A stretch of DNA of 45,249 bases from Pirellulales bacterium (lineage in GTDB: Bacteria > Planctomycetota > Planctomycetia > Pirellulales > JADZDJ01): positions 1-45,249 of the forward strand of contig DATJYL010000081.1 in the NCBI GenBank assembly GCA_035499655.1, in the 5' to 3' direction. Within the stretch, counting starts at the first letter, position 1; the number at the start of each line of letters is the position of its first letter. The position numbers and the translations under genes are program-made. The notes under the pieces were generated by a model. The model had not been told where the DNA came from. It was given only the letters and a program-made list of their open reading frames with translations, and ran no database searches. Positions 31,323 through 34,779 of this stretch are shown piece after piece.

Positions 31323-32726
31323 TCAAAGCGCCCGGCGATAGCGCTTGGTTGCCGGTTTCGCTGCCGCGGCCGGCGGTGGCGATGCGCTCTTTGGTTCGGA
31401 GCCTGTTCCGGCTGCTCCCGCTTCACTTGCGTTGGCGGCCTCTGTCGCCGCCGCGCCGGCGCTGGGCTGGCTATACTCCTCCTGGCTGTTTCCCCAACCG
31501 CCGCCGGGTCTCCACTGCACGGGGCCGCTATGGGCCGGAATGCCCGTCGTGTCGGCCGGTTTTCCCGCGTTGGAAATGCCCGGCATTTCATCGCGATGCA
31601 GAAGCCGGTTGATTCTCATCTCAATCCGCGTCAATTCGTTTCCTTCCTCGGGAGTGACAAACGAGTACGCCACGCCTTCCCGCCCCATGCGGCCGGTGCG
31701 CCCCACGCGGTGCACGTAATCATCGCAGAATTGGGGCAAATCGTAGTTGATAATGTGCGAAATCCCCGATACGTCGATGCCGCGTCCCACCACGTCGGTG
31801 GCCACTAAATACCGCACCTCGCCCGCTCGAAACGCGGCCATCACGCGATCGCGCGCCCCCTGGTGCAAATCGCCATGAATCGTGGCCGCTTCGGACAGCT
31901 TTTTCGAAAGCCGCTGATACACTTTTTCCGTTCCCCTCTTGGTCCGGCAAAAAATAATCGCCTGCCGAGGCTGCTCGCGCTGCAGCAGCTTCTCCAGCAG
32001 CTCGAATTTGCGGTTGGCGTCGACCGTGAAATAAAATTGCTCGATCGTCTCCACCGCCACGTCCTTGGGCGAAAAATTCTGCACTTCCGGATCGCGCATG
32101 TAGCGCTTCGCCAGCCGTTCCACCGGCGGCGGCACCGTCGCAGAAAGCAGCAGCGTTTGCCGCGATTGGGGGCAGTTCCGCAGAATTTTTTCGATGTCCG
32201 GCCGGAAGCCGATGTCCAACATCCGGTCTGCCTCGTCCAGCACCACCATTTTCAAATCGCGCAGTCCCAAAGTGCCCCGCGCCAAATGGTCCAGCACCCT
32301 TCCCGGAGTGCCGATGACCACTTCCACGCCGCGGCGAAGTTTTTCGATTTGCCCCTTGATCGGCTTGCCGCCGTATAAGGCCACCGCATGCACTTTGCGC
32401 CCATGCGACAGCTTGATGACTTCTTCGCGCACTTGCACGGCCAGTTCGCGCGTCGGTACCAACACCAGCGCTTGCGGACCGGGATGTTTTTTCCCCAAAT
32501 CAAGCTGCTCTAATATCGGTATGGCGAACGCCGCCGTTTTTCCGGTCCCGGTACGGGCTTGGCCCAGCACGTCAACTCCGGCCAAGGCCCGTGGAATCAA
32601 GCCGGCCTGAATTGGCGTCGGTTGCGAGTATTCCGCAGCAGCCAGCGCCGCCAGCATCGTGGTTGAAAGATTTAGCTGATCGAATCGGGTCGATTGATCC
32701 AGCACACTGGTTGCCGTATCGGTCAC
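31323..32726 (-). CDS. DEAD-box RNA helicase, RhlE type
   Basis: 467 residues. The helicase motifs are complete: Q motif with YSQPTPIQ, motif I ARTGTGKT, Ib/GG LYGGKPI, motif Ib TPGRVLDHL, motif II DEAD in VLDEADRMLDIGF, motif III SAT, and motif VI HRVGRTGRMGREG. RhlE-like proteins remodel RNA in ribosome assembly and cold adaptation. After the helicase core come about 80 residues that are Gly/Ala/Glu/Pro-rich, with a final basic KPATKRYRRAL, longer than minimal RhlE and probably disordered. Gene is monocistronic with no partner evident. Confidence 0.95.
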   Translation of the reverse strand: MTDTATSVLDQSTRFDQLNLSTTMLAALAAAEYSQPTPIQAGLIPRALAGVDVLGQARTGTGKTAAFAIPILEQLDLGKKHPGPQALVLVPTRELAVQVREEVIKLSHGRKVHAVALYGGKPIKGQIEKLRRGVEVVIGTPGRVLDHLARGTLGLRDLKMVVLDEADRMLDIGFRPDIEKILRNCPQSRQTLLLSATVPPPVERLAKRYMRDPEVQNFSPKDVAVETIEQFYFTVDANRKFELLEKLLQREQPRQAIIFCRTKRGTEKVYQRLSKKLSEAATIHGDLHQGARDRVMAAFRAGEVRYLVATDVVGRGIDVSGISHIINYDLPQFCDDYVHRVGRTGRMGREGVAYSFVTPEEGNELTRIEMRINRLLHRDEMPGISNAGKPADTTGIPAHSGPVQWRPGGGWGNSQEEYSQPSAGAAATEAANASEAGAAGTGSEPKSASPPPAAAAKPATKRYRRAL

Positions 32727-32874
32727 TGAATTCGCTGCCAGAAGAGCTTGAAGAAGCGGGTTGATCGCCCCCCGCGCAAGAATGAATCACTATTTACATT
32801 ACACGCAACTCTAACATGCCAAACAAGTTTGGTCAATGTCGCGCCGTCGTCCACGGAACAGCGGCCCGACCATG

Positions 32875-32916
32875 AAAAAATAGGTCGGTCTGTGCCGCAA
32901 GCGCGCAGACCGACCT
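32875..32916 (-). terminator. Intrinsic terminator behind the small basic gene
   Basis: On the minus strand the hairpin AGGTCGGTCTG ... CAGACCGACCT (11-bp perfect stem, loop of 13 bases with extra GC pairing possible) is followed by ATTTTTT. It starts 47 bases after the stop of the 33-residue gene. This is the clearest intrinsic terminator in the window and shows that the tiny gene is a transcription unit of its own. Confidence 0.85.
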
Positions 32917-32962
32917 TTCTCGTCGGAATCAAACAACGATTAGCATACGCCTATTGGGGCGC

Positions 32963-33064
32963 TTACCATCGCCGGCTGCTCTTTTTCTTTGCAGAACGCT
33001 TGCTCGCCTTTTTTTTCGGTGAGCGTTTCGATTTTCGAGCACTGGATTTCTTCTTGGCTGCCAT
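32963..33064 (-). CDS. 33-residue Lys/Ser/Arg-rich basic protein
   Basis: A short gene missed by usual length cut-offs: ATG at 33064, TAA at 32965-32963. The product opens MAAKKKSSARKSKRSPKKKA and ends SSRRW, with more than half of its residues Lys or Arg and most others Ser or Ala. It has a strong AGGAG ribosome site nine bases before the start and its own hairpin terminator, so I consider it real. The composition resembles bacterial histone-H1-like tails (Hc1/AlgP-type) or ribosome-associated basic peptides, which bind nucleic acid. No classical DNA-binding fold is possible in 33 residues. The neighbouring helicase gene is on the same strand but separated by the terminator. Confidence 0.78.
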   Translation of the reverse strand: MAAKKKSSARKSKRSPKKKASKRSAKKKSSRRW

Positions 33065-33576
33065 ATCTATTGGCTCCTGAACTAGCGAGCACCACATGCA
33101 AACAAATCAGCGGTCGAGCCTGGGGTGCTCCGGTTCAGGCCGGTTCCGCCAACAACACGTTCTAGTTCGATGACGCACTAATCCCGAAGTCGCTGTTTCC
33201 TACGGCACGGCGACTTTCGATCTGCAATCCAAGTTCCCGAGGGTGGCCAGTCGACAAAACTTGCCTGTGGCTGGCCTAACAACTACTCCCATGCAGGCCA
33301 TTGAAACACGATCCCCAGAAATCTGTCAATACGAGTTTGCCGCGCCATCAATCTGACGCGCCTTGGAACTTCGACGTGTCATTCTTGCGCCCCAGTAGGT
33401 TTCGCAACATGAGTTTCAATCGCTTCGCATCGGGCGGCTGGAAGGCGCTTTACCCGACCCGCTTGGAGACGAACCCGCAGGCGAATATGATTGTCCTGTC
33501 TTCCAGTACAATGCCGTGCGTGGTTCGTGTTTCTTGCCAGCCGCTTTCCGTTCATTGCAGCCCAAGGATTTCGCCC
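33065..33576. other. 512-bp gap between divergent genes
   Basis: This must hold the promoters of the 33-residue gene (minus) and the aminotransferase (plus). From 33301 the frame of the aminotransferase is open back to a TTG, but the translation has no protein character. A weak GGCCAG ... CTGGCC inverted pair occurs at 33245-33276. I can support no RNA gene or riboswitch here. Confidence 0.4.
33074..33078 (-). promoter_or_regulatory. Strong ribosome binding site of the 33-residue gene
   Basis: Minus-strand AGGAG stands nine bases before the ATG at 33064. It is one of the best Shine-Dalgarno matches in the window, where many genes have none, and it decides the start of this very short gene. 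Confidence 0.8.
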
Positions 33577-34779
33577 ATGGCGATGCAGATTTCACATATC
33601 GTTTCCGCCTTGGAACCCTCCGCCACGTTGGCGATGGCCGCCAAAGCCAAGGAGCTGGCTGCCGCCGGAAAGAAGGTGTACGACTTCAGCGTGGGCGAGC
33701 CCGATTTCACTACGCCCCCGCACATTTGCGCGGCCGCCGATGCGGCCATCGCGGCCGGCCACACGCATTACACCGTTGCCAGCGGCATTCCGGAATTGAA
33801 AAAAGCAATTGTCAAAACTTACAAGCAGCGCACCGGCCTGGAATACCAGCCGGCCCAAGTAGTGGTTTCCAACGGGGCTAAACATTCCCTGCACAATGTT
33901 TTTGCCGCGCTGTGCAATCCGGGCGATGAAGTCATTATTCCGGCCCCCTATTGGGTCAGCTATGCAGAATTGGTGAAGCTCACCGGCTCGAAGCCCGTCA
34001 TCCTGCAAACAGCCGAGACTAACGATTTCAAACTGACGCCCGCTCAACTGCAAGCGGCGATTACTCCGCGCACGACCATCCTCCTGGTTTGTTCTCCCAG
34101 CAATCCCACCGGCAGCGTCTACTCGCCGGAGGAGTTGGCCGCACTGGCTGACGTAGTTCTCCAGCACAATTTGCTGGTTGTGAGCGACGAAATCTATGAA
34201 CACTTGATTTACGGCAACCATCGCTTCAAAAGCTTCCCCACGGTGCGGCCGGGCTTGGTGGAGCGCACTGTGGTGGTGAACGGCGTAAGCAAATCGTACG
34301 CCATGACCGGCTGGCGCATCGGCTGGACCTTATCACCCACAAACGTGGCCAAGGCCATGGCCGATTTACAAAGCCAGGAAACCTCGAATCCATGCAGCAT
34401 CAGTCAGTATGCGGCGGCGGCGGCCCTGGAAGGTCCGCAACAATGCGTCCGCGACATGCACGCAGAATTTTCCATGCGACGCGATTTTGTCCGCAGCCGG
34501 CTGGCCAGAATCCCGGGCGTAAGCGTTCCGGAAATGGCCGGCGCCTTTTACGCCTTTGTAAACATCAAGCAGCATTTAGGCGGCACTTACAGCGGCGTAA
34601 AATGCGCCAACTCGGCCCAATGGTGCCTGGCGCTGTTGGAACAGCAAAATGTGGGGACGGTAATGGGCTCGGCCTTCGGGGCGGAAGGATACGTCCGCAT
34701 CTCCTACGCCGCCAGCATGGCCGACCTGGAAGCTGGCCTGGATCGAATCGCCGCTTTCATTGCCGGCGCGAAAAAATAG
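33577..34779 (+). CDS. Class-I PLP aminotransferase (aspartate aminotransferase-like)
   Basis: 400 residues from ATG 33577, which has AAGGAT seven bases upstream; an ATG two codons later is also possible. Fold type I marks: LAMAAKAKELAAAGKKVYDFSVGEPDF, TVASGIPELKKAI, NPGDEVIIPAPYWVSY, CSPSNPTGSVYS, SDEIYEHLIY, and the PLP-lysine motif NGVSKSYAMTGWRIGW (Lys239). The order and the GEPDFTTPPHI signature match subgroup I-gamma aspartate aminotransferases of thermophiles and many bacteria (AspC/AspB). Likely reaction: aspartate + 2-oxoglutarate to oxaloacetate + glutamate; prephenate specificity cannot be excluded by eye. Stand-alone gene. Confidence 0.94.
   Translation: MAMQISHIVSALEPSATLAMAAKAKELAAAGKKVYDFSVGEPDFTTPPHICAAADAAIAAGHTHYTVASGIPELKKAIVKTYKQRTGLEYQPAQVVVSNGAKHSLHNVFAALCNPGDEVIIPAPYWVSYAELVKLTGSKPVILQTAETNDFKLTPAQLQAAITPRTTILLVCSPSNPTGSVYSPEELAALADVVLQHNLLVVSDEIYEHLIYGNHRFKSFPTVRPGLVERTVVVNGVSKSYAMTGWRIGWTLSPTNVAKAMADLQSQETSNPCSISQYAAAAALEGPQQCVRDMHAEFSMRRDFVRSRLARIPGVSVPEMAGAFYAFVNIKQHLGGTYSGVKCANSAQWCLALLEQQNVGTVMGSAFGAEGYVRISYAASMADLEAGLDRIAAFIAGAKK

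Follow-up and report, generated by a model that had tools for sequence, protein, structure and literature searches.

A tiny lysine-rich, H1-tail-like gene family of the planctomycete order Pirellulales, marked by an apparently undescribed pseudoknot leader RNA

A 33-residue gene of a Pirellulales bacterium is, to judge from comparative sequence analysis, genuine and conserved, and belongs to a family of tiny lysine-rich, H1-tail-like genes that is widespread in one planctomycete order, being one of its short members. Across this order the lysine-rich gene is marked by a leader RNA that is apparently undescribed. The window analysed here is the whole of contig DATJYL010000081.1 (assembly GCA_035499655.1; 45,249 nt). 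The ORF lies on its minus strand (33064–32963; 33 codons, with an ATG at 33064–33062 and a TAA at 32965–32963), and its Lys/Ser/Arg-rich product, MAAKKKSSARKSKRSPKKKASKRSAKKKSSRRW, contains KRSPKKK. It is the sole occupant of a gap of approximately 850 bases between a DEAD-box helicase gene and a class I/II aminotransferase gene.

An AGGAG is located nine bases 5′ of the ATG (33078–33074), within an extended Shine–Dalgarno site, AGGAGCCA (33071–33078, minus strand), that was found in 79 of 94 family members, a count that includes 41 first members selected on GGAGCC and others found with a model that itself includes GGAGCC. Further upstream, a putative promoter site comprising TTGACA (33329–33324) and TTTCAAT (33306–33300; whole site 33300–33329, minus strand) belongs to a TTGACR..TTCAAT block that is conserved in a congeneric genome and in other families, and 63 of the 94 members have TTGAC[AG] somewhere from −330 to −60. 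Downstream of the ORF, a long, G+C-rich hairpin (AGGTCGGTCTG..CAGACCGACCT, 32916–32882) is followed by six T at 32880–32875, forming a predicted intrinsic terminator (32875–32925, minus strand) led by the motif CGACGAGAAAGG; a terminator is often present in other members of the family as well. For the 71-nt terminator region the predicted folding energy is −34.5 kcal/mol, where shuffled sequences average −19.6 (z −4.9) and none of 200 is as stable; a simple terminator scan of the window did not list the hairpin at 32916–32882. The preliminary description had pointed to the ATG, the AGGAG at nine bases, the TAA and the hairpin with its T-run as signals not expected by chance, and had given no strand. 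All of them are confirmed on the minus strand, and the shuffled folds bear out the argument from chance, as does the ORF itself: none with at least 30 residues, K+R of at least 45% and K of at least 30% appeared in 100 dinucleotide-shuffled windows, and the real window contains exactly one. A 44-residue in-frame form with an ATG at 33097 (33062–33097, minus strand), starting within the pseudoknot described below, is possible, but this upstream ATG is not conserved; conservation favours 33064 as the start.

The one congeneric genome sampled yields a single peptide match, a 32-residue ortholog that is 88% identical, occupies the equivalent position and keeps the AGGAGCCA Shine–Dalgarno site, the start and the terminator. 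In other families of the order, short Lys-rich ORFs with AGGAGCCA are found divergently upstream of the aminotransferase gene; the peptides vary in length and arrangement but retain RSPKK-like motifs. A conserved homologue with its start, ribosome site and terminator had been set beforehand as the test of the proposed gene, and was found both in the congener and in these other families. The start, ribosome site and terminator being kept in relatives, the suggestion of a real gene below the size limit of gene finders has held. The proposed homologue search with the 33-residue peptide succeeded in part: 7 of 57 genomes gave matches at E ≤ 1, the congeneric ortholog among them, and convincing ones came only from the gene's own genome and that one congener, the other relatives being unconvincing. 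Sequence searches miss the gene because it is too short and of low complexity, and protein search as the route to the family was replaced by flanking DNA and RNA. Eleven codons have changed between the congeneric pair, seven synonymously and four non-synonymously, with 4, 3 and 8 differences at the first, second and third codon positions. For nine members of family f8 with 20 residues each, comparisons pair by pair, which are not independent of one another, count 86 synonymous and 54 non-synonymous codon differences, distributed over the three positions as 54, 54 and 122.

Covariation shows that the leader, as a predicted fold, contains an H-type pseudoknot (33087–33140, minus strand) just upstream of the ribosome site. 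It was found by hand and with a script, and its covariation was assessed on 39 leaders and on 53 others. The preliminary description lacked this pseudoknot, which is the most unusual part of the locus. In the window, P1 pairs GCCTG (33140–33136) with CAGGC (33122–33118) and P2 pairs GAGCACC (33130–33124) with GGTGCTC (33093–33087); for P1 the script chose another helix, of 7 pairs, and the helix given here is the one that aligns with the congeneric genome and the family. Family members typically have TTCCCC/GGGGAA as P1, enclosing a loop with GAGYRCCC that pairs with GGGYRCTC just 5′ of AGGAGCCA. The 3′ end of P2 lies 5–10 nt upstream of AGGAG/AGGAGCCA in most members, and AGGAGCCA is almost invariant.

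In an alignment of 39 leaders (A1; 41 rows less the divergent leaders L093 and L094), 80.7% of the P1 and P2 cells are paired against 71.3% in shuffled alignments, double changes number 90 against 39.8, and the covariation score is 0.392 against 0.240, a value that none of 500 shuffles reached. When the partners are shifted by one to three columns, 34–52% of the cells stay paired. For P2 taken by itself the paired share is 95.2%, with double changes in seven of its eight pairs. In 53 other distinct leaders (two duplicates having been dropped), P2 again covaries (0.333 against 0.206; 0 of 500 shuffles). P1 lies outside the structure of the search model; because its 5′ strand is misregistered in alignment A2, a partner-swap test was used there, giving 7.57 against 5.35 (sd 0.17) in the 53 other leaders. 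Among these held-out leaders, 41 of 53 beat all 20 of their shuffles for a pseudoknot adjoining the Shine–Dalgarno site, a comparison that is partly circular for P2 since the model selected on P2, and five gave none under the strict rule.

Rfam 15 returned no family at gathering score in the window and no match at E up to 0.1 at 11 other loci; sub-gathering matches in the region (E up to 10) were rejected, the best reaching 19 bits where 50 are needed. A simple translational OFF state through pairing of the Shine–Dalgarno site with the leader is not supported by predicted energies, the mean duplex over 94 leaders being −7.8 kcal/mol against −8.1 when shuffled, and sequestration of the site, being no better than chance, was rejected. 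Like the SAM-II, SAM/SAH and preQ1 riboswitches and ribosomal-protein autoregulatory leaders, the element has the last strand of its pseudoknot adjoining the ribosome site. It differs from them in lacking an Rfam match, in a stem that excludes the Shine–Dalgarno site, and in its loops, where no conserved ligand-pocket sequence was seen; its helices vary freely by compensation. The Rhodopirellula-1 RNA motif is likewise a candidate cis-regulatory RNA listed for Planctomycetes, though for Proteobacteria as well (PMC2864571).

A covariance model built from the leader comprised P2, the ribosome site and the start, with only the first five coding bases of the peptide included. At E ≤ 0.01 it gave 143 matches in 139 of 396 genomes from the order, nearly always one per genome. 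Sixty of the 143 were examined, mostly from families not seen before and with 30 f8 loci (L225–L254) left out. A Lys-rich small ORF follows in 55 of the 60, with K+R of at least 0.3 in 53 and slightly lower in two (L273 and L289, at 0.24 and 0.27), which were kept as the same type. Five, all with E above 0.003, were rejected as false: L299 (superoxide-dismutase-like), L304, L305 (GroEL-like), L306 and L307 (PdxJ-like), the names being suggested by the translations. These counts bear on whether the ORF is a chance one over a non-coding RNA, with the pseudoknot and terminator belonging to an RNA gene. The RNA leader is conserved as much as the ORF, and the peptide is of low complexity, as such an origin would have it; with frame, start and Lys-rich composition kept in the 55 matches and changes biased to the third codon position, it is nevertheless scarcely credible.

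The remaining 257 of the 396 genomes gave no model match, and the 139 are a lower bound because two genomes that the model missed (G033 and G070) carry the gene in a divergent form. No K-rich ORF lies within reach at 16 of 21 helicase-ortholog loci, in genomes mostly without a model match, and one of those genomes, G002, carries its own copy elsewhere. In places, then, its absence looks real; the gene is not universal and so would be dispensable in many genomes. In a sample of the phylum, 5 of 392 genomes match the leader model at E ≤ 0.001, one of them in another order of the class. That locus (L318, genome G758) combines the leader pseudoknot and AGGAGCCA with a Lys/Ala/Pro-rich ORF of 53 residues that contains SPK; since it lies outside the order, the cassette could be of greater age or have spread horizontally.

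Many families retain the motif CGACGAGAAAGG (32914–32925, minus strand) ahead of the terminator stem, though termination needs no such motif. ACGAGAAAGGYCGG has a single occurrence in the window's genome, and the AGAAAGG within it resembles the complement of the 16S rRNA 3′ end. CGAGAAARG is found no more than 260 nt 3′ of the stop in 50 of the 94 members, and in only 9 of the 53 found without using the motif. As a universal mark, ACGAGAAARGYCGG was rejected: 152 of 396 genomes match it, many by chance inside genes, and most members found with the leader model lack it. In a named genome collection, ACGAGAAARGYCGG occurs at no fewer than 80 loci, at least; the cassette was present in 11 of the 80 loci listed, and these 11, among the matches listed, are all in planctomycete-titled records, some with doubtful species names. 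One further ORF call in that collection (L188) was of low quality and was rejected.

The peptides encoded by the family were compared for 92 members, two ORFs cut by contig ends being excluded and the first 41 having been chosen partly on K+R. They range from 15 to 112 residues (median 52) and consist of 42% K and 24% A, with almost no aromatic residues and with D or E in only two. S[PT]KK occurs 166 times, in 59 of the 92, against a shuffled mean of 8.9 and a maximum of 19 occurrences and 15 peptides in 500 composition-preserving shuffles; repeats within peptides inflate the number of occurrences, while the number of peptides is independent of them. The control orders are nearly absent, with TPKK once and PSKK zero times, and SPKK appears a single time in the window peptide. 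The tails of eukaryotic H1 and of sea-urchin sperm histones carry S-P-K-K as their motif, which binds the DNA minor groove. The earlier comparison of the product to the tail of histone-H1-like proteins is thus supported at the sequence level by the S[PT]KK excess, the lysine richness and the near absence of acidic residues. Repeated S-P-K-K is common to the family and these histone tails; the peptides have no globular domain of the eukaryotic H1 kind, there is no evidence of common descent, and the likeness is more likely convergence. Family f8 has 18–27-residue Lys/Ala peptides plus longer KKVA repeats, with S-P-K-K mostly absent. Three of its loci (L080, L267 and L314) reach 53–64 residues through near-perfect KKVA/KKKVA repeats, where relatives have 18–21 residues; this expansion is rapid repeat growth under a fixed leader.

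The window peptide matches no family in Pfam or NCBIfam, and six other members gave none above cut-off. One 96-residue member weakly matches NF038053 (E 0.0011, 19.3 bits, cut-off 80) and HC2 (E 0.38, 11.3 bits, cut-off 40). The open-licence PMC literature yielded no paper on a planctomycete gene or leader of this kind, so that within these libraries and this literature the gene appears undescribed, as had been proposed. The family resembles bacterial H1-like proteins (chlamydial HC1/HC2, Burkholderia NF038053 and the AlgP/PhaF tails) in being Lys/Ala-rich, disordered-looking and repeated, with H1-tail composition. It falls, however, far below every cut-off for HC1/HC2 and NF038053, and differs from all of these in including peptides of down to about 20–33 residues with no other domain, in having S-P/T-K-K as an over-represented unit, and in its own conserved pseudoknot leader. 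AlgP and PhaF combine an N-terminal helical domain with a long KPAA repeat tail (for AlgP, PMC9239181), whereas the window ORF starts directly basic and has 33 residues.

The gene directly 3′ of the cassette encodes a CshA/DbpA/CsdA-like DEAD-box RNA helicase (31323–32726, minus strand; Pfam DEAD 3.9e-52, Helicase_C 3.2e-34), which falls below the equivalog cut-offs of NCBIfam. The divergent class I/II aminotransferase gene (33577–34779, plus strand; Pfam Aminotran_1_2 4.3e-76) lies on the other side. The preliminary description had proposed synteny with both as a check. Of 61 non-f8 loci for which 900 nt or more of downstream sequence is available, 45 have the helicase ortholog directly 3′ on the same strand, 188–579 nt away, and these orthologs are 60–91% identical over many families; in f8, none of 22 loci has it within reach, and the peptide is retained. 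Synteny with the aminotransferase gene holds in several families only (8 of 68 non-f8 and 6 of 21 f8 loci, counting those with 1200 nt or more of upstream sequence) and was rejected as a defining mark. The helicase is the wider neighbour of the two. A small ORF, yrbN, also precedes deaD in E. coli, a parallel that is not used as evidence here.

The helicase makes an RNA or ribosome role a serious rival. The peptide could be an RNA-annealing polycation beside the DEAD-box helicase, annealing what the helicase unwinds, or a ribosome binder, in either case regulating its own leader. Besides the position and conservation of the helicase gene, an FtsJ-type methyltransferase gene follows the cassette in one f8 locus tested with Pfam (L075, about 207–1320 nt past the ORF start), and both neighbours point to RNA and against a DNA reading; a structured leader conserved for one gene also recalls autoregulated RNA-binding proteins. 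Yet the peptide stays in f8, where the helicase is absent, and the helicase gene has its own promoter-like site after the terminator (TTGACC–17–TAGAGT, 32808–32836, minus strand; from a scan, with a putative function), conserved in the congeneric genome and with a similar site in another family. S-P-K-K, moreover, is best known as a DNA minor-groove motif. An RNA or ribosome role is, in our view, the less likely of the two, and DNA compaction is the favoured function. Given the promoter-like site of the helicase gene, the peptide gene looks monocistronic. The same-strand order of ORF, terminator and helicase gene could also be that of a regulatory leader peptide, with ribosome movement over the lysine codons gating terminator readthrough into the helicase gene. 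Such a device is hardly to be expected with lengths of 15–112 residues and ordered S[PT]KK motifs, with an ORF that persists without the helicase in f8, and with a separate promoter-like site for the helicase gene.

On balance, we incline to read the product as an H1-tail-like nucleic-acid-binding microprotein for nucleoid compaction, its dose set by the pseudoknot leader; the S-P/T-K-K motif makes the predicted nucleoid role plausible. Transcription would start from the TTGACR promoter, the pseudoknot would fold, and initiation would occur at AGGAGCCA. The disordered polycation would then coat nucleic acid, most likely DNA, and its S-P-K-K turns and lysines would neutralise and bridge DNA, helping to keep the nucleoid compact. 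Genomes with the pseudoknot have about one copy of it, in the confirmed matches always in front of the Lys-rich gene, and its stem abuts the ribosome site; its most probable task is therefore to set or gate translation and so keep the polycation at the proper level. That a single element serves a single gene suggests dosage control specific to that gene, and a pseudoknot that ends 5–10 nt before AGGAG would abut, not cover, the initiating ribosome. In the simplest version, the peptide would bind its own leader and thereby regulate itself, as some ribosomal proteins do.

Another polyanion might take the place of DNA, for example polyphosphate granules, which the peptide would tether to the nucleoid in the manner of Pseudomonas AlgP. 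AlgP has a Lys-rich tail that has been likened to histone H1, and is found at polyP granules (PMC9239181). The peptide has no AlgP-like N-terminal domain, and its gene has no polyP gene on either side in the window, which leaves this reading improbable. The nucleoid reading has a more far-reaching form, a protamine-like system in which a polycation of approximately 20–110 residues with S-P/T-K-K compacts the chromosome and a peptide-bound leader pseudoknot sets its dose. We consider this form doubtful; if true, it would be a peptide–RNA autoregulatory circuit of an undescribed kind, with protein and RNA both outside current family libraries.

Planctomycete nucleoids are unusually condensed. 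Genome analyses cited in PMC3440768 found no histone homologues in planctomycetes, and the compacting protein is left open there. In R. baltica, heat, cold and salt stress repress hypothetical proteins with a pI of about 12 or more along with the ribosomal proteins (PMC2754498). The peptide family may represent a widespread, unannotated-looking candidate for planctomycete nucleoid compaction. Its conserved RNA leader locates the gene where protein search fails, and would offer a practical way to study how a polycation is kept at the right dose in a bacterium.
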